A stretch of 64,000 bases of DNA, from positions 156,692,352-156,756,351 of the forward strand of contig OZ038381.1 of assembly GCA_964036045.1 (NCBI GenBank), given 5' to 3'. Made by a program: the position numbers and the translations under genes. Position 1 is the first letter of the stretch; the number at the start of each line of letters is the position of its first letter. The notes under the pieces are model-generated. The model was not told the origin of the DNA and did no database searches. It saw nothing but the letters and a program-made list of their open reading frames with translations. Source of the stretch: Eutreptiella sp. 'Long Island Sound 2002'. Taxonomy: Eukaryota > Euglenozoa > Euglenophyceae > Eutreptiales > Eutreptiaceae. Shown here piece after piece: positions 5,578 to 54,306 of this stretch.

Positions 5578-5624
5578 GGCCAGGTTGAGACCGCAGAAGC
5601 CCCCCCCCCCCGCGTAAGCTGGGG

Positions 5625-7345: not shown

Positions 7346-7424
7346 TGACTCAGACGTGCCGATTTCCTCGACAGGGGTGAGGAGAGGGCAGGTGGCCACT
7401 GAGTCATCTGACTGAGATTCCCAG

Positions 7425-8067: not shown

Positions 8068-8493
8068 GTGTTTCACCATGAATTTGTTGTGAACAACCAT
8101 GCTATATGGGTGAAGGGGGAGATCTCCAGGCTGGAGGCATTCGCCAGCATATGCCCTATTCCAGCTGATCAATTCATGGTGTCAGCCTTTGCCATTAACT
8201 TCCCCACGGCCACCCCGTTGCATGCCAAGGACCTAGACCAGCTACAGCGCCCCCCAAGTGGCACCTTCACAGTTGTGCGTAGGTCCCTTGGCCCTTCGCC
8301 TACCACACAGGCCACATCAGTCACCCAAGCACCACAGTGCCAGACTGCTGCACCTGTCTTGAGGGTACAAATACTCCAGCCATCCAAAGAAGCGGGGCGT
8401 GTATCGCTGTCAGCCAAAGGCTCGCTAATACACGGAGACAGGAATCGGAGGCGTTCATTTGGCCCACCATCTGTTCCTTCTGTATTTCTTTAG
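8068..8493 (+). CDS. Unrecognised ORF after a splice-acceptor-like site
   Basis: About 141 codons to TAG 8491-8493. The first 70 residues look globular (HHEFVVNNHAIWVKGEISR, PADQFMVSAFAINF) and the rest is Ser/Thr/Pro-rich. A pyrimidine-rich TTCTGTTTTCCAG sits just upstream in a compatible frame (GTVFHHEF...). This could be a downstream exon of the 4588-7784 gene or an independent fragment. No motif recognised. Confidence 0.3.
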   Translation: MFHHEFVVNNHAIWVKGEISRLEAFASICPIPADQFMVSAFAINFPTATPLHAKDLDQLQRPPSGTFTVVRRSLGPSPTTQATSVTQAPQCQTAAPVLRVQILQPSKEAGRVSLSAKGSLIHGDRNRRRSFGPPSVPSVFL

Positions 8494-10229: not shown

Positions 10230-10573
10230 TGAAGCAGGTCACAACCCTACCCTGGCATTTTACCCCTAAGGGAGCATTATTTGGCCCTATATATGGGATA
10301 TATGAGGGATAGGGTATATCATATTCCATTTCCTTGTTAGGAACATAGGATGTGGGATAGATAAGGCAATCTTGGATGTTTAGTAGTTATATCAATTAGT
10401 GGATGATAGGGTGGATTTCTCATATGTGCATATCAGGTATTTCATTGGCTATGTGTACCATATCTGTTTGCAGGATACCATTCAGTCAACACTATCGTTA
10501 TGTCTTCGGTGCCAAGCAATGTTGCTGCCCATGCCACTGCGACCTCTGCTCCTGACCACCCGGTCTGGTTTCA
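10230..10573 (+). repeat. Gypsy-1 5' LTR
   Basis: 344 bp, TGAAGCAG...GGTTTCA. CCCTATATATGGGATATAT near 10284-10302 is a TATA-like promoter candidate. The ATG of the leader ORF (10500) lies inside the LTR, so transcription must begin upstream of it for that start to be used. Confidence 0.92.
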
Positions 10574-11960: not shown

Positions 11961-12029
11961 GGGGGGGATCCAGAGGTTGCAACGGGATCGGACCCTGTTT
12001 TTGCTTCCCATCCGAGAACACGATCACCT

Positions 12030-16068: not shown

Positions 16069-19000
16069 GCTTCGGTGCGCACCCTCACGTATCAGGCGAC
16101 CCAGAAAAAACTCCTCGCACCCGTTACTCTTGATCCTACCCCCGAAGATTTGGAGGCACACGAATGCGTGCGTTCACGCATTGCGAAAATTGAACGAGAG
16201 TTATTGGGTGGGAGGGCCACTACCGTTAAGCTTTACCGAAAACGTAAAGGCGCCACACGATTGTTGGCGGCTTCTCGTGTGGGTGGCGTTGTCACCACCC
16301 AAGAGCCTATTGTGTCTCCGGAGGTGGAGCTCATGAGGAGGCGCATCCTCGCGGACTATGAGCGGGATGTTTTTAGTGGGGAGGTTCGTCTTTGTCCGGG
16401 CCAGGAACACCCTAAGGTCTGTGGTACGGAGCGGTTGGGGTTTGCTAAACTTGACCTATACCCGAACGCCAAACCCAAGTCCGTGAAACCTGTACGGTTG
16501 CTGGGGGAGCGTGCCGCGGCGGAGCAAGAAATAGTGGAGGACTTTTTGGCTCGTGGCTGGATTGAGCCGTGCCCTGCCTCCGAATGGGCGTCGAACGGTT
16601 TCGTTGTGCCCAAGAAAGAGAAGGGAAAATGGCGCCTCGTGGTGGACTACCGCCAACTGAATGAGGCTACCTTGCCCGACGCACACCCCCTCCCCCTCAT
16701 AGAAAACCTGTTGCAAAATCAATCCAAACACAAGATTTTCACTATTGTGGACTTGAGTAAAGGTTTTCATCAAATTCCCCTTCACCCTGAATCCCGGGCT
16801 AAGACCGCCATGAATGTGGCGGGTAAGCGATACCAATGGCGTGTTATGCCTATGGGTATCAAGAATGGGCCCGCTATTTTTCAACGGGTCATGGACCATG
16901 TTTTGCAGGGTTTGGATTGTGCGGACGTATATATTGATGATATCATTATTGGTTCCTCTGGTGCGACGGAGGAGGAGCTATTGGCTAACCACGACCGCGA
17001 CGTGCGTGCCGTGTTGGATGGGCTACCAAAAGAGGAGTTGGTTGCTTCGGTTAGCAAAACCGATTTCTTTGTTCGTTCGGTTGAGTTTTGTGGCCATGTG
17101 TTGGAAAATGGCACACGTCGGCCGGCGCCAGGGAAAATGTTGGCGCTTGAGCGCTGGGACAAACCGGATAATGTTCGGGAGCTCCGGGGGTTCTTGGGGC
17201 TCGCCAACTATTATTCGGGCTATGTCCAAAACTACGCCTCCATAGCTACCCCTTTGATTAATATGTTGAAGGATTTGCCTAAGCACAAGAATGGCAAAAA
17301 GATAGGCCTAACATGGAATGCTTCGGCTAACGAGGCCTTTTTGAAGCTCAAGCGTGCTATTACGGATATTGTTCCCCTCCAACTAGCCGATTGGGATAAG
17401 GACTTTGTCCTCACCCCGGACGCTAGTAATTGGGCGGTGGGGGCGGCCCTACAGCAGGAAGGTCCCGATGGTGCCCTACACCCCCTTGCCTTTTTCTCCC
17501 GCAAATTGTCAGGCAGCCAATTGAATTGGAGCCCTCGGGAGAAAGAATGCTACGCCATAGTGGCGGCGCTTTTAAAATGGCATGGTTGGGTGGGGTACAA
17601 GCGCGTGGAGGTCCGTACGGACCACCGTAGCCTTGAAAACTGGGCTACGGAGGACCTCAAAACCGTCGGGGGTCCCTCTCCACGCCAAGCACGTTGGCAT
17701 GAATTGTTCTCTAAATTCGACCTCCATGTGGTTTACACTCCGGGGCCAGTGAACCCCGTGGGTGATTTCTTGTCCCGTTGGGCTTACCCTGCTAACCCGG
17801 CGTTGGGTGATGTGTCCATACATGGGACGGCCCAAGCGGCCGGGCATGTGCGGGACATGATGGCGGCCGAGAAGGAGGAACTTCTCGCCCGCCCCCTTGT
17901 ATTTAGGGCGGTTGTGGCGCCCGTTGTTACTAGGTCTAAAGCGGCGCCTCGGGCTCAAGGGGCACCCGCGTGTGATCCACCCCCTCTGGCTTCGCCTCCA
18001 GTGGGGGGGGGGACGAAGCAAAAGAGAAACCTTCGGAGACTGGAGCGAATTGTCAAGATAAAAAAATATTGGAAGTCCCACAAGAAGGCAACTCCTATAC
18101 ATGGGGAGGATGCTCCCAATGTTTTTGAGATAAATTCGGCTAAACACTACCCAAATTGTCAACGCTACAAAAAAATGTGGCAAGATGCCTTGAATGGGAG
18201 CTTCCAAGATGGAGTGAGGTTGGTGGATAACAAGCTCGTCCGTAATGGACGGTGGTGTGTTCCTACGCCGCTAGTGCATCGTTTAGTGGCCGAATACCAT
18301 GATGCACTTCACTTAACTACCTCCAGTGTGGAAAAACACTGGAAGGAAATTAACCATGGCGTGGAAGGTGAGGGGTTGTACAAAGCAGTGGAACTGCAAT
18401 GTCAAACGTGTCCCTCATGTGCCATTCACACGCATGACACCAAGCGCAAGCAAGGGTACATGACCCCTATGTCTATACCTATGGAGCCCATGGACTCCAT
18501 AGCGCTTGATGTGTTTCACTACCCTTCCACCTCCCGCGATGGAGAGGTGTATGACCGAATGCTCCTATGTGTATGCCGGCTTTCCGGCTACCTCATCGCG
18601 ATCCCTATTCCTAAACCCCGTCATGAAGACAAGGATGAAGGGCTAACGGGGAGAAGAGCGGCCCATTTGGTAATGGAGCGCTGGGTGGATAGGTTCGGAG
18701 CCCCTCGTGAAATATGCTCCGACCGTGGGCCACAATTTGTGAGCCGATATTTCCAAACCCTTTGTTCTAAGATTGGTGCCCGCTCGACTATGTGTCTCGC
18801 GGGTAGGCACCAAGGTAATGGCAAGGCCGAAAATACTGGCAAGCAGCTAAGGCGTGCCGTTGCTAAAGCCATTACCTTGAAGAAAAAGAAAACTAATTGG
18901 GTAGAGGTTTTGCCCGCCGTTGTACGAGCGTGGTATGAGACTACAGGTCCTTCAGGTTATACACCTAACGAGATTGTGTTTGGTAAACACAACCGTACTA

Positions 19001-19629
19001 AGGGGCCTCCTCTTGCTGAGCCTAAGGGGGTGGCCCAAGACGCCGCTCACTACTTCCAACGGCGTGAGGAGCTTATTGCTCTTGCACGGAGGGCTATAAT
19101 TCAAGTGCAAGAGACAATGGCTCGTAAGTATAATAAGAGTAGGAGGATGTCCCCCAATTTCTCAAAAGGGGACCGCGTATGGGTCCGTCGCCAACGCAAA
19201 AATCTTGGCGATAAGACTTGTCCCTATTGGGATGGGCCCTATGAGGTTGTGGCCAAGAAGGCGCACGACCTCTATGTTCCTCAAGTGGACCAACGGAGGT
19301 TAGTTGACGTTCACGTTGATTGTTGGATGAAAACGGTCCACTCCCCTCGCTCCCCCGTGCCTCTAAATTACACGGAGGAGGTTGCTAGAGTGCCCTTCCA
19401 GTTTGAGGAGGACACCTATAATGTCAAGAAAATATTAAGTCACCGTACTTACCGCAAGAGACTTCTCTTCAAGGTGCGGTGGGAGGGTTATACCAAAGAT
19501 TGGGATACCGAGGAACCTGTTGAAACCTTCTTACCATCCTACAACAAAGTTTGCAGAGATTACTTGCAGAAACAGAATCTCACCAAAGCTGTTGACATCC
19601 TTACCCACCTTGGTGGACCGCTCTCATGA
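16069..19629 (+). CDS. pol: Gypsy-1 Pol: RT, RNase H, integrase, chromodomain
   Basis: In phase with the protease ORF after UAG 16066; 1,186 codons to TGA 19627-19629 with no further stop. Reverse transcriptase: LVVDYRQLN, KGFHQIPL, MPMGIKNGPAIFQ and the catalytic YIDD box (16930-16941). RNase H: TPDASNWAVGA, REKECYA, RTDHRSL. Integrase: an HHCC zinc finger (HDALH...CQTCPSC), then D (18508), D in CSDRGPQF (18721) and E in KAENTGK (18829). The last two are separated by exactly 35 residues, the D,D35E pattern. A chromodomain (YNVKKIL...FKVRWEGY...EEPVE, about 19408-19570) closes the protein and probably steers integration to modified histones. The first ATG (16333) lies upstream of RT, so re-initiation is an alternative to readthrough. 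Confidence 0.93.
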   Translation, partial: ASVRTLTYQATQKKLLAPVTLDPTPEDLEAHECVRSRIAKIERELLGGRATTVKLYRKRKGATRLLAASRVGGVVTTQEPIVSPEVELMRRRILADYERDVFSGEVRLCPGQEHPKVCGTERLGFAKLDLYPNAKPKSVKPVRLLGERAAAEQEIVEDFLARGWIEPCPASEWASNGFVVPKKEKGKWRLVVDYRQLNEATLPDAHPLPLIENLLQNQSKHKIFTIVDLSKGFHQIPLHPESRAKTAMNVAGKRYQWRVMPMGIKNGPAIFQRVMDHVLQGLDCADVYIDDIIIGSSGATEEELLANHDRDVRAVLDGLPKEELVASVSKTDFFVRSVEFCGHVLENGTRRPAPGKMLALERWDKPDNVRELRGFLGLANYYSGYVQNYASIATPLINMLKDLPKHKNGKKIGLTWNASANEAFLKLKRAITDIVPLQLADWDKDFVLTPDASNWAVGAALQQEGPDGALHPLAFFSRKLSGSQLNWSPREKECYAIVAALLKWHGWVGYKRVEVRTDHRSLENWATEDLKTVGGPSPRQARWHELFSKFDLHVVYTPGPVNPVGDFLSRWAYPANPALGDVSIHGTAQAAGHVRDMMAAEKEELLARPLVFRAVVAPVVTRSKAAPRAQGAPACDPPPLASPPVGGGTKQKRNLRRLERIVKIKKYWKSHKKATPIHGEDAPNVFEINSAKHYPNCQRYKKMWQDALNGSFQDGVRLVDNKLVRNGRWCVPTPLVHRLVAEYHDALHLTTSSVEKHWKEINHGVEGEGLYKAVELQCQTCPSCAIHTHDTKRKQGYMTPMSIPMEPMDSIALDVFHYPSTSRDGEVYDRMLLCVCRLSGYLIAIPIPKPRHEDKDEGLTGRRAAHLVMERWVDRFGAPREICSDRGPQFVSRYFQTLCSKIGARSTMCLAGRHQGNGKAENTGKQLRRAVAKAITLKKKKTNWVEVLPAVVRAWYETTGPSGYTPNEIVFGKHNRTKGPPLAEPKGVAQDAAHYFQRREELIALARRAIIQVQETMARKYNKSRRMSPNFSKGDRVWVRRQRKNLGDKTCPYWDGPYEVVAKKAHDLYVPQVDQRRLVDVHVDCWMKTVHSPRSPVPLNYTEEVARVPFQFEEDTYNVKKILSHRTYRKRLLFKVRWEGYTKDWDTEEPVETFLPSYNKVCRDYLQKQNLTKAVDILTHLGGPLS

Positions 19630-24534: not shown

Positions 24535-26017
24535 ACCAAAAATCGACAGAGTTACAAAACCTTTTTCAAAATCAAAAAAACAGGGTGCAGGTTTTGGGGG
24601 GTTACGACGGCCTGGGTGTCAGCCTGAGTGACCGCCTGAGTGCCCGCCCGGGTGTCAGCCTGAGTACCTACCTCAAAAGCCGCAACCTGTTTTTTTCGCT
24701 TTTAAAAAAGTTTTGTAATTCTGTCCAAAATTCGATCGTGGCCCCTCTTACGATTTTTTTTTGGGACACAAAAAAAAGGTTGCGGCTTTTATAGGGCTAC
24801 CTAAGGTTACCTAAAGTTGCCTAAGGTTACCCCAGAAGCCGCACCCTCTTTTTTTCATTTTGAAACAAATTTTGTAACTCTCTCGAAATTGCACTTGTGG
24901 TCCTATGTACGATTTTTTGCTTGGGTGCAAAAAACAGCGTGCGGATTTTGAGGGGGGTTACCTAAAGTTACCTGACGTTACCTAAGGTTACCTAAAGTTG
25001 TCTAAGGTTACCTAAAATTACCTATCCCAAAAGCTGCACCCTGTTTTTTACATTTTGAAAAAAGTTTTGTAACTCTGTCAAAATTTCACTTGTGGTCCCT
25101 TGTAAGATTTTTTGGTTGGGTGAAAAAAACAGGGTGCGGGTTTTGAGGGGGGTTACCTAAAGTTACCTAAGGTTACCTAAAGCTACCTATCCCAAACTCC
25201 GCACCCTGTTTTTTTCATTTTGAAAAAAGATTTGTAACTCTGTCGAAATTTCACTTGTGGTCCCTTGTACAATTTTTTGCTTTAGTGAAAAAAACAGGGT
25301 GTGGGTTTTGAGGGGGGTTACCTAAAGTTATCTAAGGTTACCTAAAGTTACCTAAAGTTACCTATCCCAAAAGCCGCACCCTGTTTTTTCATTTTGAAAA
25401 ACGTTTTGTAACTATGTGGAAATTCTACTTGTGGTCCCTTGTCCGATTTTTTGCTTGGGTGAAAAAAACAGGGTGCGGGTTTTTCAGGGGGGTTACCTAA
25501 AGTTACCTGAAGTTACCTCAGGTTACCTAAAGATACCTAAGGTTACCTAAAGTTACCTATCCCAAAAAGCCGCACCCTGTTTTTTTCATTTTGAAAAAAG
25601 TTTTGTAACTCTGTTGAAATTTCACTTTTGGTCCCTTGTACAATTTTTTGCTTGAGTTAAAAAAACAGGGTGTGGGTTTTGAGGGGGTTAAATAAAGTTA
25701 CCTAAAGTTACCTAAAGTTACCTATCCCAAACTCCGCACCCTGTTTTTTTCATGTTGAAAAGAGGTTTGTAAATCTGACGAAATTTCACTGGTTGTCCCT
25801 TGTACGATTTTTTGCTTGAGTGAAAAAAACAGGGTGCGGGGTTTGAGGGGGGCTACCTAAAATTACCTGAAGTTACCTAAGGCTACCTAAAGTTACCTAA
25901 GGTTACCTCTCCCAAAAGCCGCACCCTGTTTCATTTTGAAAAAAGCTTTGTAACTCTGTCGAAATTCTACTTGTGGTCCCTTGTACGATTTTTTGCTTGG
26001 GTGGAAAAACCAGGGTG
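24535..26017 (+). repeat. AT-rich hairpin satellite, about eight units of roughly 177 bp
   Basis: GCACCCTG-type unit starts lie at 24682, 24841, 25036, 25201, 25376, 25572, 25736 and 25921 (spacings 159-196 bp). Each unit has an inverted repeat (CCGCACCCTGTTTTTTT ... AAAAAAACAGGGTGCGG) enclosing about 100 bp with TTTTGTAACTCTGT and TTGTGGTCCCTTGTACGATTTTTTGC segments. Units are separated by variable runs of the 10-mer GTTACCTAAA/G. A related segment in opposite orientation starts the array at about 24550. No coding. The array is cut by GC-rich copy B at about 26018. Confidence 0.85.
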
Positions 26018-36502: not shown

Positions 36503-39500
36503 TTGACGTTTGAGGTTTGATTTTGCGGGTACTAGACGCCTTTCGGCCCCGGAGGGCCACCTGGTTGGGCAAGGTGATATCCTCCTCACCGGGTCCTAGT
36601 GGGGGGCCCTCCAAGACGCACCTCCTGCCTGGTGGCGGAGTCCCCTGGGTTCACAGGGCTCGGAGCCTCCTCCCTGCCCAGCTTCCCCTCTTTGCCACTC
36701 CCCGGTCAGTGCGTCAATTCGCAGCCGTGGCTGCAGGCGCTTACCCACCGCGTCGCCCCCCTAATGCGTGGTCGCCCGGGACACCGGCGCTGCTGGGCCC
36801 GTGCTACTGGCTTGTCGCCAGTGGGACCCCAGTGGGCTGGCGCGGAGGCTGCCTAGCCCTGGGGCTGGTGCGTGGCGCTATGCGCCACTACTGCCTTGGC
36901 AGGTGCAGTGCCCTGGTCGTGTGTGTGCGGCGCTCACGGCCGGTTCGGGGGGGTTGGGGCCGGTGCCGGGTGTTGTGTCTTCCCTGTTTCCCCCTGCCCG
37001 CCCCGCGGTTCCTGCGCTGTGTGTGGCGGGCCGTTCTGTCTGGGTGTCCCTTATCCTCGCTCGCTGGTACGCCATTCCATGCGGTCTGTGCGTTCCGCGG
37101 GCTCGGTCCGGTTGCCCTTCTGGTTTTCCCCGTGTGTCCTTTGTGTGTGTGTGCGCTCGCGCTCCCGCCGCCTCAGCCCCCCCTCCCCCCCTCCCCGGGT
37201 TGGTGTGGCGTGCGCACCTCGCACGGTCTCGGTGCTGGGCGCTGGTAGAGCCGTTCCACTCTGTCCGTGCCCCTCCGCGTGTCCAGCCTCGGTCCCGTGC
37301 TCCGTTTGGCTTGCTTGGGGGGGGGCAGCCCGGTCCCGTTTCCCCCTACCTGGCTAGGGGCTGCGCGCTCCCCGTGGGGTGGGTGCGGGCGTGGGGACCC
37401 GTCACCAACCCCACTGCGCGCGCTATTCCGAGCTGGCTTTGCGAGCTGGCTTGGCGCGCTGTAGGGGCGGCACGAGGGCGCCCGGGGGGGGGCGCCTCTT
37501 GCCTGGGTGCGGGGGCCCGGGGTCTGGCGCTCTCCCACCCCCGACCTCTCGTCCTTTCGCGCGTGCGGCCGGGGCGCACTACCCACTCACTGTGGGTGTG
37601 GGGGGTGCCGGCGTAGGGACCCGTCACTAACCCGACAGTGCGCGCTCTTGCGAGCTGGCTTTGCGCGCTGTGGCGGCGGCATGAAGGTGCCCGGGGGGGC
37701 CGCCTGTTGCCTGGCTGTGGGGCGTCCGGGGTCGGGCGCTCTCCCACCCCCGACCACTCGCCCTTTCGGGCGTGCGGCCGGGGCCCACTACCCTGTAGCT
37801 GTGGGTGCGGGGGCTGCGGGCGTGGGGACCCGTCAACAACCCCACAGTGCGCGCTCTTGCGAGCTGGCTTTGCACGCTGTGGGGGCGGCATGAGGGTGCC
37901 CGGGGGAGGCGCCTCCTGCCTGGGTGTGGGGCGTCCGGGGTCGGGCGCTCTGCCACCCCCGACCACTCGTCCTTTCGGGCGTGCGGCCGGGGCCCACTAC
38001 CCACTTGCTGTGGGTGCGGGGGTGCAGGCGTGGGGACCCGTCACCAACCCCACAGCGCGCGCTCTTGCGAGCTGGCTTTGCGCGCTGTGGGAGCATCATG
38101 AGGGTGCCGGGGGGAGGCGCCTCCTGCCTGGGTGTGGGGCATCCGGGGTCGGGTGCTCTCCCACCCCCGACCACTCGTCCGTTCCGGCGTGCGGCCGGGG
38201 CCCACTATCCACTGGCTGTGGATGCGGGGGGTGCGGGCACGGGGACCCGTCACCAATCCCACGGCGCGCTCTTGTGAGCTGGCTTTGCGAGCTGAGGGGG
38301 CGGCATGAGGGTGCCCAGGGGCGGCGCCTCTTGCCTGTGTGTGGGGCGTCCGGGGACGGGCGCTCTCCCACCCCCGACCTCTCGTCCCTTCGGGCGTGCG
38401 GCCGGGGCCCACTACCCACTGGCTGTGGGTGCGGGGGCTGCGGGCGTGGGGACCCGTCACCAACCCCACAGCGCGCACTCTTGCGAGCTGGCTTCGCGCA
38501 CTGTGGGGGCGGCACGAGGCTGCGGGGGGGGGGGAGCCTCCTGCCTGGGTGTGGGGCATCCGGGGTCGGGCGCTCTCCCACCCCTGACCACTTGTCCTTT
38601 CAGCCGTGTGGCCGGGGCCCTCTACCCACTGGCTGTGGGTGCGGGGGGTGCGGGCGTGGGGACCCGTCACTAACCCGACAGCGCACGCTCTTGCGAGCTG
38701 GCTTTGCGCGCTGTGGGGGCGCCACGAGGGTGCCCGGGGGGGGCGCCTCTTGCCTGGGTGTGGGGCGTCCGGGGACGTGCGCTCTTCCACCCCTGACCTC
38801 TCGTCCCTTCGGGGTGCGGCCGGGGCCCACTACCCACTGGCTGTGGGTGCGGGGTGTGCGGGCGTGGGGACCCGTCACCAACCCCACAGCGCGCACTCTT
38901 GCGAGCTGGCTTCGCGCACTGTGGGGGCGGCATGAGGGTGCGGGGGGGGGGAGCCTCCTGCCTGGGTGTGGGGCATCCGGGGTCGGGCGCTCTCCCACCC
39001 CTGACCACTTGTCCTTTCAGCCGTGTGGCCGGGGCCCTCTACCCACTGGCTGTGGGTGCGGGGGGTGCGGGCGTGGGGACCCGTCACTAACCCGACAGCG
39101 CACGCTCTTGCGAGCTGGCTTTGCGCGCTGTGGGGGCGCCACGAGGGTGCCCGGGGGGGGCGCCTCTTGCCTGGGTGTGGGGCGTCCGGGGACGTGCGCT
39201 CTTCCACCCCTGACCTCTCGTCCCTTCGGGGTGCGGCCGGGGCCCACTACCCACTGGCTGTGGGTGCGGGGCGTGCGGGCGTGGGGACCCGTCGCAACAC
39301 CCCACAGCGCGCGCTCTTGCGAGCTGGCTTTGCGCGCCGTGGGGGCGGCATGAGGGTGCATGGGGGGGGCGCCTCTTGTCTGGGTGTGGGGCATCCCGGG
39401 CCCGGCGCTCTCCCACCCCCGACCTCTCTTCCGTTCGGGCGTGCGTCCGGGGCCCACTACCCACTGGCTGTGGGTGCGGGGTATGCGGGTGTGGGGACCC

Positions 39501-40374
39501 ATCATCAACCCCACAGCGCGCGCTCTTGCGAGCTGGCTTTGCGCATTGTGGGGGCAGCACGAGGGCGCCTGGGGGGGGCGCCCCTTGCCTGGGTGTGGGG
39601 CGTCCGGGGTCGGACGCTCTCCCACCCCCGACCACTCGTCCTTTCGGGCGTGCGGCCGGGGCCCACTACCCACTGGCTGTGGTCGCGGAGGATGCTGGCG
39701 TCAGGACCCGTCACTAACGCCACAGCACGCGCTCTTGCGAGCTGGCTTTGCGCGCTGTGGGGGCGGCATGAGGGTGCCCGGGGGGGGCGCCTCTTGCCTG
39801 GGTGTTAGGCGTCCGGGGATGGGCGCTCTCCCATCCCCTACCTCTCGTCTGTTCGGGCGTGCGGCCGGGGCCCACTACCCACTGGCTGTGGGTGCGGGCG
39901 GTGCGGGCGTGGGGACCCGTCACCAACCCCACAACGCGCGCTCTTGCGTGCTGTGGGGGCGGCATGAGGGTGCCTGGGGGGGGCGCCTCTTGCCTGGGTG
40001 TGGAGCGTCCGGGGTTGGGCGCTCTCCCATCCCCGACCACTCGTTCTTTCTGGCGTGCGGCCGGGGCCCACTACCCACTAGCTGTGGTTGCGGGGGGTGC
40101 GGGCGTGCAGACCCGTCCACAACCCCACACCGCGCGCTCTTGCGAGCTAGCTTTGCGCGCTGTGGGGGCGGAATGAGGGTGCCCGGGGGGGGCGCCTCTT
40201 GCCTGGTTGTGGGGCGTCCGGGGTCGGGCGCTGTCCCAACCCCGACCACTCGTCCTTTCGGGCGTGCGGCCGGGGCCCACTACCAACCGGCTGTGGGTGC
40301 GGGGGTGCGGGCCTGGGGACCCGTCACCAACCCCACAGCGCGCGCTCTTGCGAGCTGGCTTTGCGCGCTGTGGA
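36503..40374 (-). mobile_element. GC-rich retroposon copy C inserted in Gypsy-2 gag
   Basis: 3.9 kb flanked by an 8-bp duplicate GTTCAGGT (36495-36502, 40375-40382); part of the left copy could also belong to the tail. On the minus strand the 3' end is the (AAACCTC)n-type tail at 36503-36523, preceded by about 860 bp shared with copy A. Upstream lies a 209-bp tandem array (37380-40374) that reaches the 5' junction. It has no terminal inverted repeats and no coding sequence. A short-repeat tail at one end and truncation in an array at the other look like target-primed retroposition with 5' truncation (inference). Its removal restores gag frame FKRFR|WRLPEV. Confidence 0.78.
37380..40374 (-). 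repeat. 209-bp GC-rich tandem array, about 14 units
   Basis: GGACCCGTCAC-type landmarks at 37396, 37616, 37826, 38034, 38243, 38449, 38660, 38868, 39077, 39286, 39496, 39703, 39913, 40110 and 40316 give spacings of 197-220 bp, mostly 206-211. Each unit contains GCGCGCTCTTGCGAGCTGG and GCGTGCGGCCGGGGCCCAC. One divergent unit is visible in copy A (about 290-405). Long open frames through the array are by-products of repetition. Confidence 0.92.
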
Positions 40375-44570: not shown

Positions 44571-45480
44571 TGCTTGACGATGGGAGGCACGTGCCGGTGG
44601 CCTTCTGGAGCCGAGTCCTGGCGGAAGGCCAGAGACGGACGTGGACGCCCGGAGAAAAGGAGGCGTATGCCATCGTCATGGCTCTCAGGAAATGGGCTGG
44701 GCACATAGCCCTACATCCCGTCACCGTCTGCACCGACCATCAGAGTCTGCAGTCGTGGCACAAAGAGCACGTGGACACCCCCTCTGGTCCCGCCTCCCGA
44801 CGGGCAAGATGGCATGAGACCTTGGCCAAGTTCGACCTCACGGTTGTGTATGTTCCCGGCAAGGACAACACCGTGGCGCACTGTCTCAGTAGGTGGGCCT
44901 ATCCCGCCAGCAAGGGCATGACGGATGTCTCGGCCCATGGCGATGAGGCTGAGACCGCTGAGGCCAAAAGGATCATAGAACTGGAGCGCCTGATGGAGGA
45001 GGAGGGTGTAAAATGCTTCGTCATCATGGCTGCGAATGCCCCCCTCGGAAGGAGGATGGGCAGAGCAGTCAGAGTACTCGCCCCTGAGGGAGCCGAGTCC
45101 AACAAGCACCTCTTCCCGGAATCGTGCCTCTAGAACGACCAGACCGACGACTACGCCAAGTCTGAGGCCTTTGAGGCCGAGTATAGGGCTGTGACCGACC
45201 CTGATGACGGGCAGAAGTGGCCAAAGGGGCTGACCGAAGAGGATGGCAAGCTTTACCGGAATGATAAGCTGCTGGTCCCGGAGTCCCGAGTGCTCGGGCT
45301 GTGTGAGGCTTCGCACCTCCACATGATGCACCCAGGGGTCAGGAAGCAAGCCCTGGATATGCAGCGCCGGTTTGAGATCGACCAGATCGGTCTCTACAAC
45401 GCCATCAGGAAGATCCGGACGGGTTGCTCCGTCTGTCAGGCCTGCAATCCCGATAACCCGAACGTCACGGGGGAAGCCCA
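44571..45480 (+). pseudogene. pol: Gypsy-2 RNase H and integrase zinc finger, cut by the LINE
   Basis: Continues pol in the next frame: YAVGAVLEQ, PGEKEAYAIV and CTDHQSLQSW for RNase H, then the VVYVPGKDNTVAHCLSRWA tether. UAG at 45131-45133 breaks the frame. The integrase HHCC finger follows (HMMHPGVRKQAL...GCSVCQAC, 45320-45450). Coding stops at 45480 in the LINE target site and resumes at 54291-54307 (QWTPVP|DPPMESVPMD). Confidence 0.85.
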
Positions 45481-45495
45481 ATGGACTCCGGTACC
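45480..45495 (+). repeat. LINE target-site duplication (second copy 54291-54306)
   Basis: AATGGACTCCGGTACC (16 bp) is found exactly on both sides of the LINE; the first A merges with the tail. It is part of the Gypsy-2 integrase gene, which becomes continuous when one copy and the LINE are removed. Confidence 0.95.
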
Positions 45496-45634
45496 ACACT
45501 TTCTGAGTGTCTTTTTTTTTTCGATTGACCCTCAGAACTCTTTTGATGGATCCACCAATAGTCCAGGCTATTCGGTGATTTGCAAAAATCCTGGGCTGTT
45601 CAAGTTCTGGGCTGATTCTCAATTCCCTTCGAAT

Positions 45635-45711
45635 TTACCGTCATTTCCTTTGGAGTTACCGTCATTTCCGCTATTTCTATATTGGACAAAACCCGTGTTT
45701 ACCGTCATTTC
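45635..45711 (+). repeat. Three 13-bp direct repeats in the LINE 5' UTR
   Basis: TTACCGTCATTTC occurs at 45635-45647, 45656-45668 and 45699-45711, upstream of the ORF1 ATG (45767). Possible internal-promoter binding sites (inference). Confidence 0.75.
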
Positions 45712-45766
45712 ATACGCTTTGGCATCACATTCCCGAACTTTGAGCATTCACTGTTCACCGCACATC

Positions 45767-48700
45767 ATGTCGTTCTTTGGTCTTGGTTCAAAAAGCAAAC
45801 TGCCAACCATTCCGCTGCCGTCCCCTTTTCCAATCCCAAAAGGCCTCACTTTTGGTGCTGCTCAACTCTTGGCTACGCCAAAAACATCTTGGGAAAATGA
45901 CTACGTCAAATTTGGCACTTACGAAGAAGGTACTCGCATGTTTGACTCAAAACGCTTCATTGCACACTCCAACATACGCCAATTCCTCTACAATAGACAC
46001 TCGTTTGACCGAGATCTAAGGGGCACCGACTTCACCAACGCCTTCAACAACATAGACATCAACAAACAAACTCAACACAGATACCTATCGCCCGTTCTTG
46101 ACTTGTTCATGCACAAAGAGGAGTACATGCCTAAGGTTGCGTTCTACCTTGCACCTCCCATGGACAAAACGGGGTTGCCACCAATGGTGAAAACTTCCAA
46201 ACACTACGTAGAATTGTTGAACAGCCGCTTTGCTTCACCAAGTACTCCAACCCATGGATGGTTCATCACCACGAGCTACGATAGGGAAGTCACTTCCAAG
46301 TCCTACCTTCCCACAATGAATGGTTCTCTCGTTCAAATAAAAGATTTCATCGCCGAGATCCATGTTTTCAAGGAGACCAAAAACCAATTTGCTTTGGTAA
46401 GGAACAACACACCCAACTCTGTCGAAACAAACGGACAATCTCTCCCCGTCGTGGCCCTATGGCTTGATAGCCGTAAAAGCAAAACGGATGAAATTCGATT
46501 CTTTGATGTCAACCTCTACGAACCATCTCTGTCCGAAGCCTTCCAACACGCCCGCATCAACAAATCACCCAACACGGTCAACTCCAAGGTTCGGATTGAC
46601 GTTTCTATCAAGACCCTACGCGCTTTCTACGAAGAATCCAAAGCCCTCAACCCAAAAATCCAGGGAGACTTCTCGCCCACTGGCAATAGAATCATGCCAA
46701 CGGGTTTGAATGGAGCCTTCGGCGGTTTGAGTGACGCGGCTAGCATCAACTCATCCAATGCTTTCTACCCACTAGGAGGAATCCGCAACTTCCGCTCTCC
46801 TCTTGAAGGTTTTGTGAGGTATGATTGGGACCTTCCGCCGCCCTTCGACACCTATCTTCGCAATGCGGTGGTCAACTCCCCGGCGTTTGCCAAAGGAGAC
46901 ATTTTCATCATGCGTATCGATGATCTCCAAAGCCTACGAACATTCCAGGTTGTACCCTCTCGTGATTGCAAATCTCGCAACCCCAATGACAAAGCGGGCG
47001 ACATTTGGTCCATCACAAGGCGGACTTATGCGGCCCACCCACGCTATTGCATGTACGAAGGAGCTCTCATAAAAAACTCAACGAGTCTGCTAGTTACCCT
47101 AGACTACTCGGCGGTACCATGCAAACCTCAAAAAACCCCGCTTCAAACTCTAGCAACAAGATTGTTCCCTGACGATTGCTTCTTGTTATTCAAAGGAACG
47201 GCCGGAGCCATGGTTCCCTTTTGGGATCAAAAACCTCAAGCAGCCTCCCTTGCATCTACGGCTCTCCCCCAAGACAAATGGCCTCTTCCGAAAGACACAG
47301 TTCGCACGCCGAGTGACCCATGCTTAGTTGAAGTTGCCGCTTCGATGACGGAATCTTTTCATTCGGTCAAAATTGTTATGGGCTTGCTAGGGCCCTTTCT
47401 CTCAATAGACAAGGTGATCACGTCATCAAATGTTGCCACTCTATACCAACTCAAATATCAAAAGAGAGACTCGGCTCCATTGGCGCATGGCTCCAGCTAC
47501 CGTGGAATATCTGCACGCTGCCTCGAACCGGACCATGTCACTCGGGAAAAACACCTCAAACCGCACACCGATGAAAAACACCCCAACGACCTCATCGCCA
47601 CTTTCCAATGTGGAGGAACCCTTGGTGCCGGAGCCTTTGTCACCCAACTTATGGAACTCCAAGAGAAACTGGACGCACCGCCCCCGACCCCAAGAGACAA
47701 AATATCCCAATGGAACACGGAAGACAACACGCCTAAGACACCAACACCCGCTGATACCTCCATGGCCTCCCCTCCTTCACCACCCCTTTTTCCTCCCTCA
47801 GGAGCTACGGCACCGGACAACTCCGAGTCAACCTCAAGCACTCCTTGCCCAACCACGTCCGGTCTGTCACCGCCAAGCAACGACCACACTTCGCCCCAAG
47901 CAGAGGTGCATCTTCAAACCAAAGTGGACACGGATGACCAACAACTCCTCACTCTTCTACTCGAAGCACACACCCACAAGCCATACAGCCCAAACATGAA
48001 TAAAGAAGTTGGGAACAAAGCCATCCCAGACTCCCAAAAAGATCACAGTTTCGCCGAAGCCATCAATGTAGATCAAGACCCCACGCCGGAGGAAAGAACC
48101 GACGCCATCGTAGTCGACCACGTTCCTGCGCCTGAGGCGAACTCCGTCTCCGAAGCTATTAATGTAGACCAAGGCCCCCCGCCAGAAGAGAAAGCCGAGA
48201 AAATCGACACCATCGAAGTCGATCACGACCCTCCGCCTGAAGAGAACCCCGAAGCCCCCTACAGAATGCCCCCTGCACATTTCGCTTCTAACAAAGTCCC
48301 CGACGGTCTCGACTACTTTCCAGAACTCTTCAAGGCTGAGGAAGAAGACAGCCTCATTACTCTATTTGATCACCTCCAACCGAATTGGGACACCTCTATG
48401 CATCGACACCTGAAGCACTTTGGCTATGGAATGGGAGCTAATGGCACCGATATCACACGGTTGGAAGACCTACCACCCGAGTTCGAGCCTTACATTGAAA
48501 AAATTCTGCTCCAACTGTCCTCCCGCGGCATTACTATCGATGCTCCAAACCAAGTGACCGTTGCCCGGTACGAGCCTGGTTCAGGCATAGGGGATCATGT
48601 GGATGCCGAAGCGTTGGGCAAATATGTGCTAGACTTGAACCTTAAATGTCCCCTCCCCGTGCACTTTCGCTATAAGAAAAGGGGACATCACTACGTCCAC

Positions 48701-49003
48701 TGGATGGACTCCGGTTCGCTCACATGTTTACGAGGAGAAGCCCGTTGGTCATACTTACATGCAATTCCCAAAACTAGCATGGATGAAGGAAATGGCCAAT
48801 ACACGCAACGAGTTCTCCGATACGCCATGATATTGCGCCATTGCGAAGGCCATGGTTCAAAGTCTGAAGGACGTGCTCATTGGGGCTGGCATAGCCGCCC
48901 CGTCTGCCTCGACCCTTGTGGAATCCCACATGAACACCGTGCCTTTTTTCCCTTCTTCTCCCTCACCCCCAGACTTCAGGCACCTCACTGCGACCGACCT
49001 TGA
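45767..49003 (+). CDS. LINE ORF1 with C-terminal AlkB-like 2-oxoglutarate/Fe(II) dioxygenase
   Basis: The start is the first ATG inside the LINE in this frame (MSFFGLGSK); the frame also happens to be open upstream through the insertion boundary. It is intact to TGA 49001-49003. Residues 1 to about 620 are a large folded-looking region that I do not recognise (for example FDSKRFIAHSNIRQFLY, GFVRYDWDLPPPFDTYL). Residues about 630-830 are Pro/Ser/Thr-rich and contain four repeats of the type AINVDQDPTPEE/AIVVDHVPAPE. Residues about 850-1025 are AlkB-like: NQVTVARYEPGSGIGDHVD with HxD ligands H944 and D946, distal H998 in YLHAIP, and 2-oxoglutarate-binding R1018 and R1024 (RYAMILR). All expected ligands are present, so oxidative demethylation of nucleic acid, perhaps the element's own RNA or cDNA, is plausible. 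Substrate unproven. Confidence 0.88.
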   Translation: MSFFGLGSKSKLPTIPLPSPFPIPKGLTFGAAQLLATPKTSWENDYVKFGTYEEGTRMFDSKRFIAHSNIRQFLYNRHSFDRDLRGTDFTNAFNNIDINKQTQHRYLSPVLDLFMHKEEYMPKVAFYLAPPMDKTGLPPMVKTSKHYVELLNSRFASPSTPTHGWFITTSYDREVTSKSYLPTMNGSLVQIKDFIAEIHVFKETKNQFALVRNNTPNSVETNGQSLPVVALWLDSRKSKTDEIRFFDVNLYEPSLSEAFQHARINKSPNTVNSKVRIDVSIKTLRAFYEESKALNPKIQGDFSPTGNRIMPTGLNGAFGGLSDAASINSSNAFYPLGGIRNFRSPLEGFVRYDWDLPPPFDTYLRNAVVNSPAFAKGDIFIMRIDDLQSLRTFQVVPSRDCKSRNPNDKAGDIWSITRRTYAAHPRYCMYEGALIKNSTSLLVTLDYSAVPCKPQKTPLQTLATRLFPDDCFLLFKGTAGAMVPFWDQKPQAASLASTALPQDKWPLPKDTVRTPSDPCLVEVAASMTESFHSVKIVMGLLGPFLSIDKVITSSNVATLYQLKYQKRDSAPLAHGSSYRGISARCLEPDHVTREKHLKPHTDEKHPNDLIATFQCGGTLGAGAFVTQLMELQEKLDAPPPTPRDKISQWNTEDNTPKTPTPADTSMASPPSPPLFPPSGATAPDNSESTSSTPCPTTSGLSPPSNDHTSPQAEVHLQTKVDTDDQQLLTLLLEAHTHKPYSPNMNKEVGNKAIPDSQKDHSFAEAINVDQDPTPEERTDAIVVDHVPAPEANSVSEAINVDQGPPPEEKAEKIDTIEVDHDPPPEENPEAPYRMPPAHFASNKVPDGLDYFPELFKAEEEDSLITLFDHLQPNWDTSMHRHLKHFGYGMGANGTDITRLEDLPPEFEPYIEKILLQLSSRGITIDAPNQVTVARYEPGSGIGDHVDAEALGKYVLDLNLKCPLPVHFRYKKRGHHYVHWMDSGSLTCLRGEARWSYLHAIPKTSMDEGNGQYTQRVLRYAMILRHCEGHGSKSEGRAHWGWHSRPVCLDPCGIPHEHRAFFPFFSLTPRLQAPHCDRP

Positions 49004-49083
49004 ACCTACCACCCTCCCGTCGGTTGTCACACGCCCCACACATAATTCAAACACTTCTCGACTTGAGCCACCCTCCAACCTAA

Positions 49084-52000
49084 GAACCCCCCCCCCCCCG
49101 TGACAACAAAAATGAAAAAAGGCTACGCTCCGGCAAAGTCACCACCCAGAAAAACCTGATCCACAGCATTCGCGCCGTCAGCCACAGTACAGAAAAGAAG
49201 CCTCCGACCCCCCTTCTTTTGCAACACTTCAAGCAAGGCTTTGAAATTGTTTTCCTTCAAGAACTCAGGAAGAAACCCCTCCTGCCCCACATTTACAACC
49301 AAATAGGTCACAGAGCTGTGATCTTCTGAAACATATCCCCCCACCACGAACACGGGTCCGGTTTAGCCTTCTCTCCCCTCCTCAGCCAGTTCGTCACCCC
49401 TTGCGATAATCCAGACAAAGACGGACTCATCACAGCTGCCCTCCTAACCCTGCCCGGTGCACCACCTCTCCTAGTCGCCTCTGTGTATGCGCCTGCAGGC
49501 GAGGTATGGAGAAGGAAAGTGGAAACCAGCTTACACCCCCTCCTCAAGCAATTTTCAAGCTTTCTGTTGGGGGGTGACTTCAATTGTCTGATTCATCCCG
49601 CCTTGGACAGCCAGGGGCTTCTGAGTGACAATCATTGGCCATGGATCAGACACTCAGCCACGGCCACCCCAACCCTACTAGGCGACACCTAGCGCCTGGC
49701 TAACCCTACAACACGCGAGTTCACCAGGTATCCACAAGGACACCGTACCAGCTCGTCCAGGTTAGACTACATCCTCATTTCCCTGGCCTCACTAGAAAAG
49801 ATGTCCCTTTTGGATGGCAGCATTCACTCAGAGAACTGTGCTACTGATCACCATCCCTCCTCGTGCACCCTTTCTGTTCCCCCCACCCCCTTCCACTCAT
49901 CTACAGTCACCAGACATGTTTTCAGAATACTCAGCAAGTCTGAAATCAGCACGTTCAACGATGCACTGAAAGAAATGTCTGATTGGTGCCAGTCATTTAC
50001 CCCTGTCATCAAAAACACCCCCCTTGCTACGGTCCAAAAGTACACCTCCATGGTCATTCGGGAGCTAAGCGCTCAATACCACAACGCCACAGCCCCCCGC
50101 ATCAAACCCGACTCCCGAGCCGTCAAATCCATTCGCCAAGCGCTAAATGATGTCCCCCCCCCAAACACACCCGCAATTTTCTGCCCGAATGGCACAATTG
50201 AACGATGCAGTCCACCAATCGGATGACACTTACAACAAATCTAAACGGTCAAAAATACACAGGTGCCTCATTCAAAAAACAAACATCAAGAAAACACTCA
50301 AGGAAGCGGCAAACCCAACGGAACATCGAGCATCCTTGTTAAAAGACCCAAACACAGGCAAACTAACAAGTGACACCAAAGGTCTCACCGAAATTTTTTC
50401 CGACACCCTACTCACGCTGGGCGGTCCTCTAAACCGAGGAACTCCTCCAGCATACACCCCAGTGCCCCCCTACCACCACCATCACCCCTACGCCAGAACT
50501 CACATGGCACAGTTTCACCTCCTACCTGCACTCCTGCAGACCCTCTAAGGCGGGTGGCCGAGACTCCACGAATGGATACCTCTTTCACATATCTCCTGAA
50601 CCAGTGAAACGGTTTCTGCTCTCTGTCTGCAACCTTCACCTTACCAACGATATGCCTGATGAGTAGTTGGAAGCCAACGTGGTCTTGCTTTACAAAAAAG
50701 GTCCAACACACAACCCGGTGAACTACAGACCAATCGCCCTCCTCAACACACTCTACAAAATTGTTGCCACTCACGCTGCCAAACACCTATACGAAATTTC
50801 CTCGTTTTATGGCCTGATCCACAAAACCCAGTTCGGGGGCCTCCCCAACCGACGGTGCTCAGATCACATTTTTCAGCTATTAGCTAAATACCAAAACTGC
50901 CCGGCCTCATACAGCCTCTACATAGATTTCAACAAAGTTTTCAACAGTGTCCCTCACGGGTCCCTGTTTCAGACCCTGGAACACTACCGCCTCCCCTCCC
51001 CCCTCATCCGTCTCATCCGAGGGCTATACCGAGCTCCACGCGACTACCCGTTAGTTGACGGCTACACCGGTGCATCACACCTGCAAACCAGAGGCGTCCG
51101 CCAAGGATGTCCCTTGTCAGGGATCCTGTTCGTGTTATATGTGAATGTCTTATTATTCGCTGTCCCTCACCACCTGTCCACTCCCATCACACAACATGAA
51201 TCTAGCCATGCATTTGTGGATGACCTGCTGTATCGCTCTGAATCCTCCCACCGCATAAAAGAGATCCTATCTTTCTACGACTCCAAGGGTCGGGCATGGG
51301 GCCTAGACATCAACCTCAGCAAAACGGAACTCCACAGCATGGGAAAGGCCACTCAAACAACGATCACAGCGCCCTCTCGAAAAAGGTTGTCAACCATCGA
51401 CCCAAAAACCCTCGCCCCCCGGAAGGTATACAAATACCTCGGTGTCTATCTGTTCACAGACCCCGACCCCACCCTCACATATGAACTGGCCAAATCTGAA
51501 ATCACGTCTTTTTCCACTTTCTTGCATCCACTCAACCTCACCCTTTCTGAATATATCCGACTGGTGAACCTCCAACTCATCCCCATTCTCCAATATCGCC
51601 TCATGCCACACCCACTTGAACGATCACAGCTTCGCTCCCTGCAAAACATCACTTGGAAATCATCGCCATTGACCGTGATCCAGAGAAACGCAACCGCATC
51701 TCCAGGTTGGTGTCCAACAAAGACAAATACAATTCCAGACCCCATGGAGGTCTTGACTTGCGCCACTTCCAACACTGCCTAAACATCTCTACTGTCAATG
51801 CGGCCACCCGTTACTTGAACAACGAGGGTCCGGATGAAACCAACCAACTTTTTCGGAAAGCAGCACTCAACGAGGAAACCTCAATGGTCCTAAAGCTGGT
51901 CAGCGACGCCTGTCACAGTCTCCACCTAAATGTCAAAACCACCAGTCCTGAAATCAACACCCCACCCCAACTGCTCCAAAAACATGAACAGGCCTATGTT

Positions 52001-53481
52001 TGATTCACCACTTACTCCAACAACAGAGTTCTAAGTGGGGAAACAAACAACGCCACCAAAATACCGATCTTGGCATCCACAGAGGCATTGTGACTGATAC
52101 CTCCTGCGACCAAGCATCCATTTACTTCCCAGGGGACGACACAACCTTCAGCCTCCTGGGTTCTGAAAACGTCTACACCATTCACCCCCCAGTCATAGCA
52201 GCACCCATCAACATCCTTGGGAACCACTTTCTTCTAATCCCGTCCTACAATGCATGCCCTCCCTTACGTGACAACCCCCCCCCCCCTTTGAACGGGGTCC
52301 TGCTCCAAGCTTCACCAATGGGATACCTATACCAGGTCCACGGTTTACTCCCCCACTCCCTACGAAATGAAGACCTCAAAGCGTGGAACTGCAACACAGC
52401 ATCCCAACTCCTGCAACAGGCCTCCTCCGAGACAACCTGGGTGTACCTAGATGGTTCAGCAGGGCAAGGAGTTTTCGGCTCAGCCGCCACCATCTACAAA
52501 CCCAACGGTACAATCCTGGTTCTGTGCCTCCCATCTCCCTACCACTCCTCTGAGGGATCTGAGTACTGGGCTGGCATTATGTTTTTTCGATGGGTATCCT
52601 CCCTGAACCAACCCATGCAGTGCATTATTCTTGGAGATAACGAGCAAGTGATTCGCACTGCGAACGTCCAATCCTACGTGATGGCATCAAGCTCATCGCA
52701 TGGCACATGGGTTAAGGCTTACTCCTCTCTCCAAGCTCAAATGCCTACATTTGCGTCAACACAATTCGCATGGATTAAAGGACATGCAGGATTTCAGGGG
52801 AATGAATGTTCGGATCTGTTCTCCAAGTGGATTGCATACAGCTCATCATCCTCTCCTGAGTTACTGCCCCCATCCCCCCTGGGAACTGTATCATTCGCTA
52901 GCTTGCCCATCTGTCATCCCCTGACCACCCCTGTATCGAGGGCCCTCTTCTCCCGTCAGCACCACTACAACATCCACGTGCCGTCCAGCTTTTCCTTCTA
53001 CAATCACTCATCGTGGTTCTCCGGACTCCCCTCCAAATGGTCATCAGGCGACATGAATTTTCTTACATATGCATTCCACAACGACTTGACCCCCCGAATT
53101 TGCCACCAATGCTCACAATCACAGCCCCTCGATGTAGCCTGCTTCTTGTCCCATTGCCCCAGCGCTGACCACATTGTGCAAAGCTTCATACATGCGTGGC
53201 CTGCGCCCTTCAACCAGATAGCAAGCATCTGGTGGGCCCAGTGCTCCCACCCAGGGGACAAACGAAATTTCGTCAAAGTTCTGGTGCCCTCCACCCTGTA
53301 CGAAGCCATGACTACACCCACTCCAGGCGAAACACACCCCCAGCGCGTTTTAGCTTTTAAAAATGCACTCCCCCAGCGCCAACGACAGTTAAAGGACGCT
53401 CTATCCAAAGCACTCACCTGGCTAGCCGAAGATCCCCCCCCCCCTTCCACGCCCCCCCCCCCCCAAGGTCCCAACACCTGA
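49084..53481 (+). pseudogene. LINE ORF2: endonuclease, reverse transcriptase, RNase H (broken)
   Basis: Endonuclease (AP/EEP type): FEIVFLQELR, VYAPAGE, GDFN (49573-49584), SRLDYILIS (49756 onward) and ATDHHP; stops TGA 49327 and TAG 49690. The frame shifts in a C-run near 50155. The linker ends in LKDPNTGKLTSD. TAG 50664-50666 falls where Trp would be usual (DE*LEANVVLLYKKG). RT: NYRPIALLN, LYIDFNKVFNSVPH, RGVRQGCPLSGILF and an intact catalytic FVDD box (51213-51224), then NLSKTE and YKYLGVYL. Shifts near 51650 and 52000 lead to an RNase H domain with D52450 (YLDGSAG), E52561, D52636, H52783 and D52813 (nucleotide positions). Stops and shifts make it non-functional as assembled. Those in homopolymers could be sequence errors. 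Confidence 0.88.
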
Positions 53482-53618
53482 AGCCAACCATACAGCACCT
53501 ACAGCACGTCTCACACCCCACCGGCGCACAGCGATTACCACTATCCCCTGCCTCCAGACCACCTGCCAGACTCAGTCCAGCCCCCCCCCTCAAAAAAGCC
53601 ACGCACCCACAAAAAAAA

Positions 53619-53828
53619 ATGCCCATGCGCCCCAAACAACCACCCACGAAACGCAGCCGGGACACTGAGGACCCTCGACCACGCAAAACACGTAGTGACA
53701 CCTACGCCCCCAAACAGGTGGCACCCCCCCAACCCCCCAGCGCTGACAGTTCCAACCGACGGATTACAGATTTCTTCCGAGCTCCAGCCCCCCCCCCCCG
53801 CCTCCGGCCGATCCGCCTCCATCAGTGA
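53619..53828 (+). CDS. Small basic ORF with PIP-box-like RRITDFF, LINE 3' region
   Basis: 69 codons from ATG 53619. The first half is strongly basic and NLS-like (KQPPTKRSRDTEDPRPRKTR). Later, SSNRRITDFFRAP resembles a PCNA-interacting peptide (Qxx[ILM]xx[FY][FY]) but lacks the leading Gln. It may be a separate ORF or the displaced C-terminus of ORF2, since C-runs at 53430-53465 and 53580-53590 could hide frame errors. Human L1 ORF2p also carries a PIP box, in a different place. Confidence 0.35.
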   Translation: MPMRPKQPPTKRSRDTEDPRPRKTRSDTYAPKQVAPPQPPSADSSNRRITDFFRAPAPPPRLRPIRLHQ

Positions 53829-54290
53829 GTTCGACAACAGAGTCTTTTTCACCCCCCCCCCATCGATTGCCCTACCCCCCCTCAACATTCTGTTTCTTCT
53901 CGGCCGAACACAGAGTGAACCCCGTCCTCACTTCCCAGTACTTCTGATTTGATCGAACACTTGAGTAAGCCTCGGCTGATTTCGTCCACGCCTCACGTCT
54001 GACCACGCCTCACACCACAACGCCTCCATCCCTCCCCTCGATCCTGATCTCATTTTGTTAATCCGCCAGTCCTATGTGCAACTAACCAGGCACCCACACG
54101 GGCGCGTGCCAAGGCAACCTAGTTCTCTGCAACCCTACCCATCCATGACAGGGTGAGTTCCGAGGTTCTTCCATGGCTACAACCCTCACATAGTGCTAGG
54201 GAGAGCCAAGCACATTTGTCTATACGTATCACTCTGATTGAGGGCTGTGTCCCTGTCCGGACATTAAAGTGGCTGTACAATGCAAAAAAA
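53829..54290 (+). other. LINE 3' UTR and tail
   Basis: No ORF of note. It ends GGCTGTACAATGC followed by an A run of 8-9 nt that merges into the target duplication. Confidence 0.7.
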
Positions 54291-54306
54291 AATGGACTCC
54301 GGTACC

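Follow-up and report, generated by a model that had tools for sequence, protein, structure and literature searches.

Among the closest described systems, the Phalaenopsis Ty3/Gypsy elements carry an AlkB open reading frame (ORF), which has been proposed to act on cognate transposable element (TE) RNA or on host RNA. The orchid elements are of the long terminal repeat (LTR) type, and their AlkB is a separate, recently acquired ORF of the ALKBH5 type with N6-methyladenosine (m6A) demethylase activity in vitro (PMC9289625). AlkB is also named in plant RNA viruses of the Alphaflexiviridae, Betaflexiviridae, and Closteroviridae (PMC9289625). Long interspersed nuclear elements (LINEs) carry other enzymes: virus-like SF1 RNA helicases in the Jockey ORF1 and the TRAS ORF2 of insect LINEs (PMC5563155), and an esterase domain in a LINE ORF1 (PMC3905857). 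Here we describe a LINE in a 64,000-nucleotide stretch of the euglenophyte Eutreptiella sp. 'Long Island Sound 2002' (contig OZ038381.1, positions 156,692,352 to 156,756,351; hereafter the window), whose ORF1 ends in an AlkB-type dioxygenase domain, together with its relatives in the 2.28-Gb source genome. Like the orchid elements, these LINEs form retrotransposon families that keep an AlkB dioxygenase, but they are non-LTR and old, their AlkB is fused to ORF1 in four of the five families, and it is ALKBH8-type by sequence. They share with the plant viruses an AlkB in a mobile RNA-based genome, which in the latter is that of an RNA virus. Like Jockey and TRAS, they would have gained and kept an RNA-directed enzyme in a LINE protein, here a dioxygenase instead of a helicase and outside the insects; the esterase is likewise an enzyme domain in a non-LTR ORF1, but an unrelated one. 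Since AlkB in the orchid Ty3 retrotransposons and enzymes in LINE proteins are already known, the novelty lies in AlkB within LINEs. We found no published report of it, and it appears new, in a search that left most subscription papers and Repbase outside, so an earlier report is possible.

The sequence-only reading of the window had proposed that a complete AlkB-type dioxygenase terminates ORF1. The profile search of this domain against 2OG-FeII_Oxy_2 (PF13532) succeeded, with a match at residues 893-1007 of the window ORF1 (E 7e-10, 39.9 bits versus a curated cut-off of 31.2). Among the LINE families scanned (W, that of the window, and X, Y, and Z), the cut-off was also exceeded in X (53.2 bits), Y (45.3 bits), and the Z locus (50.8 bits, C12:6442499). 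The best solved match of the window domain was ALKBH8 (4.3e-10), and a ten-row alignment of W with its relatives at about 70% identity improved this to 4.6e-13. Furthermore, the alignment of the window domain to S. pombe P8A3.02c (5yl6), which we take to be Ofd2, extended through the R-x5-R end. The domain and its catalytic residues are as follows.

48296..48856, forward strand: AlkB domain, ORF1 residues 844-1030 (PF13532, ALKBH8 match, and five-family profile)
48596..48604, forward strand: Fe(II)-binding HxD, H944 and D946 (direct reading, and alignments of copies and families)
48758..48760, forward strand: distal His of the Fe(II) site, H998 (the same in all six rows of the five-family alignment)
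48818..48838, forward strand: R1018-x5-R1024 signature (invariant in six rows from five families)

These five residues stand exactly where the sequence-only reading had placed them. Its further claim of an N-x6-Y segment held in part. AlkB proteins bind 2-oxoglutarate (2OG) through an N-x-Y motif. The segment noted earlier runs from N928 to Y935, and Y935 is the conserved cofactor Tyr; the Asn position of the usual N-x-Y motif is, in contrast, Ala933 in the window. The 5yl6 protein is likewise without this Asn in the HMMER alignment. Neither of the two AlkB proteins scanned with NCBIfam was assigned to a family.

The LINE that carries the domain was delimited by its target site, by reconstruction of the empty site, and by comparison with other copies. 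Its parts are listed below.

45480..45495, forward strand: target site duplication, left copy (16-bp exact match)
45496..54290, forward strand: LINE insertion of family W, 8,795 bp with a short 3' A-tail (target site duplication on both sides, empty-site reconstruction, and the sister copy L076)
45767..48856, forward strand: family-typical ORF1 of 1,030 codons, gag-like region plus linker plus AlkB (open frame; codon 1031 is a stop in other copies)
45767..47686, forward strand: gag-like region of ORF1, residues 1-640 (homologous to the ORF1 of X, Y, and V, and to that of Z by profile)
48857..49003, forward strand: read-through tail, 48 extra residues after the lost stop codon (comparison of copies)
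49165..50425, forward strand: decayed apurinic/apyrimidinic endonuclease (APE) portion of ORF2, interrupted by two stops (49327, 49690) and by a frame change (match to the open ORF2 of L011)
50667..51779, forward strand: ORF2 reverse transcriptase (RT) segment, with a stop at 50664 just upstream and frame changes on both sides (RVT_1, 5.6e-31)
52000..53478, forward strand: RNase H / C-terminal segment of ORF2, lying in a different frame (RNase_H at E 0.00023; its 21.8 bits fall short of the curated 25.8)
54291..54306, forward strand: target site duplication, right copy (16-bp exact match)

The target duplication is perfect, as had been read from the sequence. The LINE sits inside a Ty3 pol gene, and when the flanks are joined without it, one open Ty3 integrase frame runs across the junction. 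Since the LINE matches no part of itself, nor the rest of the window, no LTR pair was seen. With a 16-bp duplication, a 3' A-tail, no LTRs, and APE plus RT in ORF2, the element belongs to the APE-type non-LTR retrotransposons. The best solved matches of its RT were 8c8j (RNA-directed DNA polymerase) and the LINE-1 ORF2 protein 8sxt. The L1-type LINEs thus share the APE-RT ORF2, the target site duplication, and the A-tail, and are among the best solved RT matches; the elements described here differ from them in the RNase H, another gag-like ORF1, and AlkB. The gag-like region gave no Pfam family above cut-off, and the RNase H / C-terminal segment was matched by loci of X, Y, Z, and V. The LINE strand is rich in C (33%) and poor in G (18%), and the flanking Ty3 DNA differs from it in this respect.

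The frame at 45767-49003 is indeed open from its ATG for 1,078 codons without interruption. Codon 1031, which is sense in the window, is a stop in 19 of the 19 other copies read (18 of family W, L036-L053, and the 70% relative L054), and all six database relatives that reach the end of ORF1 in frame also stop after residue 1030. Therefore, the family-typical ORF1 comprises residues 1-1030, with the 48 residues beyond it arising by read-through. The description of an intact ORF1 beside a decayed ORF2 was right about the open frame and the broken ORF2, but "intact" was too strong because the stop codon of ORF1 is lost. Compared with the open L011 ORF2, that of the window falls into five segments in alternating frames, with four frame changes, and contains three stops. 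The window copy is dead, with these ORF2 lesions and the lost ORF1 stop codon. The closest copy, L076, lies elsewhere in the genome and aligns with positions 1-8250 of the window LINE at 96.4%; it keeps the ORF1 stop, and its match to the L011 ORF2 falls into three segments with two frame changes. ORF2 was decayed in both full W copies read, while an APE-RT-RNase H ORF2 was seen in X, Y, and V.

The genome was then found to hold many other AlkB-bearing LINE copies, in at least five diverged families (W, V, X, Y, and Z). Of 1,107 first-look candidates from a PF13532 search, 150 were scored; the rows listed exceed the cut-off, and many lie in open frames of 900-1,160 codons. With the window domain as query, 150 of 1,486 candidates were scored, and the matches listed included rows at 50-100% identity, a single row at 39%, and 22 rows at 32-35%. 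In W, V, X, and Y, a gag-like region is fused to AlkB in ORF1, whereas in Z AlkB is a separate ORF after ORF2. Twenty stretches of 9.9 kb were taken from the PF13532 rows, picked for AlkB plus a long open frame, and proved to be 11 of X and 9 of Y. A gag-like region with AlkB was present in 20/20 (AlkB by choice), APE plus RT in 19/20, and an RNase H region in 17/20; L022 was without an ORF2 match and L023 had only a piece of RT. In L011, a 916-aa ORF1 (from the chosen ATG) accompanies a single ORF2 frame of 1,584 codons with Exo_endo_phos, RVT_1, and RNase_H. Family V was read in 21 of the 22 listed rows (L055-L075) and forms three subfamilies; its one full locus (L055) combines gag and AlkB in an ORF1 of 857 aa, and its ORF2 frame stays open as far as the stretch extends. 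Over 525 bp of the domain, six V copies from six different contigs show no difference, which indicates that V spread recently. In the one Z locus (L035 plus L034), all frames are open: ORF1 has 671 aa, the ORF2 frame 1,794 codons, and AlkB occupies a third frame of 365 codons (L034 1780-2874), which overlaps the end of the ORF2 frame. According to hhalign (97.4%, E 1.2e-11), the gag-like regions of the other families are homologous to the Z ORF1, while three Z shuffles reached at most 0.2%. L034 also holds an open frame at 7219-8001, which presumably resembles a MULE/FAR1-type transposase.

Selection on the domain was estimated as the mean of pairwise NG86 ratios of nonsynonymous to synonymous divergence (dN/dS), with X and Y pairs restricted to dS > 0.02, and with a W set of the window plus 18 W rows without stops, L054 being left out of the ratio. 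The dN/dS of the W domain was 0.237 (19 copies, 171 pairs), while the shifted-frame control gave 1.054; the value of about 0.24 supplies the test that the sequence-only reading had suggested. In family X, the ratio was 0.216 for AlkB, 0.200 for gag, and 0.282 for the linker; in family Y, the respective values were 0.262, 0.287, and 0.362. The comparisons V1-V2, V1-V3, and V2-V3 were saturated at synonymous sites (proportions of synonymous difference, pS, 0.75-0.78; of nonsynonymous difference, pN, 0.17-0.27). H944, D946, and H998 were kept in 20/20 W-type copies (the window, 18 W copies, and L054), with R1018 lost in one and R1024 in one. The AlkB domain is under purifying selection. Hence a full-length AlkB-type domain does belong to the LINE, as had been proposed, and we are nearly certain that AlkB is a real and selected part of the element.

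A family alignment of six rows was built from one representative of each of the five families, with L054 as a second W-type row. Identity between families was 25-38% for AlkB and 41-49% for RT. Fifteen of the 156 full columns were invariant, including Y935, H944, H998, R1018, and R1024. Position 946 was D or E, thus a carboxylate in 6/6 rows, with HxD in W, X, Y, and Z. Five of the six catalytic positions tested fell among the 15 invariant columns, for which the chance is 2.4e-5 (the Asn position lies outside this test). For each of W, X, Y, V, and Z, ALKBH8 (3thp/3tht) was the best solved match and is the closest solved AlkB, from which the LINE domains differ in mostly being without the N-x-Y Asn. 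The joint profile of the five families matched ALKBH8 at 1.5e-32, Ofd2 at 4e-18, and ALKBH6 at 6e-17, and more weakly ALKBH7 (8e-13), a DNA N6-methyladenine (N6-mA) demethylase (2e-12), and ALKBH5 (1.1e-7). With regard to the repair or m1A/m6A erasure that the sequence-only reading suggested for the domain, the nearest solved enzyme is thus ALKBH8, known as a tRNA wobble uridine hydroxylase, and not the m6A eraser ALKBH5. The orchid type, an LTR element with an ALKBH5-type ORF, therefore does not accommodate these non-LTR elements, whose ALKBH5 score is 1.1e-7 against 1.5e-32 for ALKBH8. L001, the sole other AlkB locus compared with structures, had as its nearest structures bacterial AlkB and 5xeg, a 2OG-Fe oxygenase family protein, instead of ALKBH8. 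When the LINE domains were placed in a tree with seven further AlkB loci of the genome, they and the multicopy exon-like frame L031 fell on one side (support 88/91), which suggests that they form one side of the tree. L031 itself, with two copies about 6 kb apart, groups with the AlkB of family Z (88/88).

These elements represent an old LINE lineage with an ALKBH8-type AlkB. Most likely, the ORF1 protein would bring this dioxygenase to the element's own RNA, a proposal that we hold at about even odds. L1 ORF1p packages its own RNA. If the ORF1 protein of the present LINEs similarly coats the element RNA in the retrotransposition particle, the AlkB at its end could hold a 2OG/Fe(II) dioxygenase against the template. 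The enzyme might then oxidise base marks that halt the reverse transcriptase or make the RNA a target of host control, and so keep the template readable; the candidate marks would be N1-methyladenosine (m1A), 3-methylcytidine (m3C), m6A, or a uridine mark. AlkB is probably catalytically active in at least some families, and the element's own RNA has roughly an equal chance of being its main target or not. The layout varies, AlkB being either the terminal part of ORF1 or a separate ORF, and yet AlkB is kept, which argues against passive linkage. In a bolder form, held with slightly less than even confidence, an ALKBH8-type dioxygenase may be a core module of an ancient LINE lineage, on a par with gag, endonuclease, and RT, retained across deep divergence, shifted between the end of ORF1 and ORF3, retooled to HxE in the recently spreading V, and editing template marks in the particle. 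If this is true, RNA repair or mark erasure would be built into target-primed reverse transcription. The control of LINEs by RNA marks has mostly been studied through host enzymes, while here the elements carry their own enzyme of the eraser superfamily. Several diverged families in one genome, one of them recently amplified, make the question testable, and the difference between HxD and HxE families provides a natural experiment on the metal site.

Several observations weigh against this proposal. The AlphaFold2 models were unfit as evidence (pLDDT, the predicted local distance difference test, was 44 for the AlkB domain and 27 for the gag-like region), and a Foldseek search with that AlkB model gave no match at E<=0.001 and was not used as evidence either; as the structure models failed, the fold rests on sequence profiles. 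The 2OG Asn position is Ala in W, V, and Y, Leu in Z, and Asn only in X. Family V has HxE in place of HxD as the iron ligand, in 21/21 copies, which otherwise keep the distal His in 21/21, R1018 in 20/21, R1024 in 21/21, and the Tyr in 20/21. The dN/dS within V1 was 0.339, at very low divergence. The copies used for dN/dS were chosen for having no stops or long frames, which favours good copies, although such a choice does not by itself lower missense change. The AlkB tree pairs V with W (93/96), whereas the RT tree pairs W with X (94/92), so domains may have been exchanged between LINE families. Among the database relatives, 12 cover H944 and 9 of these keep it; it is N, Y, and C in P0006, P0008, and P0012, which may be dead copies. 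Finally, m6A promotes L1, and its eraser ALKBH5 restrains L1 (PMC7873242), so a LINE would not necessarily gain from erasing m6A.

An alternative, which we regard as unlikely, is that the protein acts in trans on host RNA, either at a tRNA wobble uridine, which is the base that ALKBH8 hydroxylates, or by stripping host transcripts, thereby tuning translation or silencing for the element. The best solved match of all five families and of their joint profile (1.5e-32) points in this direction, and the Z domain, being encoded in a separate ORF, may act away from the particle. On the other hand, AlkB is fused to the gag-like ORF1 in 4/5 families, and sequence nearness does not fix a substrate. Besides its AlkB domain, ALKBH8 carries RNA recognition motif (RRM) and methyltransferase domains; no Pfam match to either was found in the ORF1s scanned, those of W (E<=0.1), X, and Y (E<=0.01).

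It is less probable still that AlkB is an idle fold, without catalysis, which the ORF1 protein retains for RNA binding or assembly. Replacement of the 2OG Asn in 4/5 families and HxE throughout the V copies would fit such a role. Nevertheless, both Fe-binding His residues, the Tyr, and both Arg residues are invariant among family representatives only 25-38% identical, the carboxylate ligand is kept in 6/6 rows and 21/21 V copies, and HxE forms a functional triad in clavaminate-synthase-like oxygenases, which counts against an idle fold.

Action on DNA, by which N6-mA or alkyl damage would be removed from the element cDNA or genomic copies to fend off silencing, appears quite improbable. Alkbh1 loss in mouse cells raised N6-mA on the 5' ends of young L1, along with further repressive marks and the silencing of neighbouring genes (PMC4982230), which would suit this mechanism, as would the solved DNA N6-mA demethylase among the joint-profile matches (2e-12); however, ALKBH8 (1.5e-32) and Ofd2 (4e-18) score far better. 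That one copy recently captured a host AlkB gene by chance, or that the domain was wrongly called, has next to no probability: the window copy taken alone would fit a capture, but AlkB copies in at least five diverged LINE families, their number and old synonymous divergence, and the lack of any E<=1e-5 match between the window domain and the eight genomic loci scoring highest with PF13532 (L001-L008, none of them identified as the host's own ALKBH8), where the near-identical host gene considered by the sequence-only reading was not seen, rule out a single recent capture, and the PF13532 match together with the five-family profile match to ALKBH8 rules out a mis-called domain.

The window ORF1 was also compared with the protein database, in which 19 relatives were found, all from one source (ena). 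A search with the AlkB part returned P0001, which stands for 106 clustered sequences and has 605 aa at 86% identity, one with the gag part returned P0001, P0002 (out of frame before AlkB), and P0003 (cut short), and one with the domain alone returned 16 clusters. Two IMG/VR scans, which included no direct comparison with plant-virus AlkB, found no relative of the window AlkB domain, and a GTDB scan with the window RT gave nothing useful. P0009 was identical to the window at 29/93 positions of the linker versus 130/187 of the AlkB domain. Where covered, D946 was kept in 12/12 database relatives, H998 in 8/8, R1018 in 7/7, and R1024 in 6/6.

Elsewhere in the window, a separate Ty3-type element, not the one broken by the LINE, has frames at 10410-19626, and its frame at 16069-19623 matches RT, RNase H, integrase, and chromodomain. 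The window contains no dinoflagellate spliced leader, even when up to 3 mismatches are allowed. A nested array at 24798-26017 consists of 10-bp GTTACCTAAA-type units within units of about 165-195 bp, and a 209-bp unit is repeated in tandem at 37439-40373 in about 14 copies with 87% matches.

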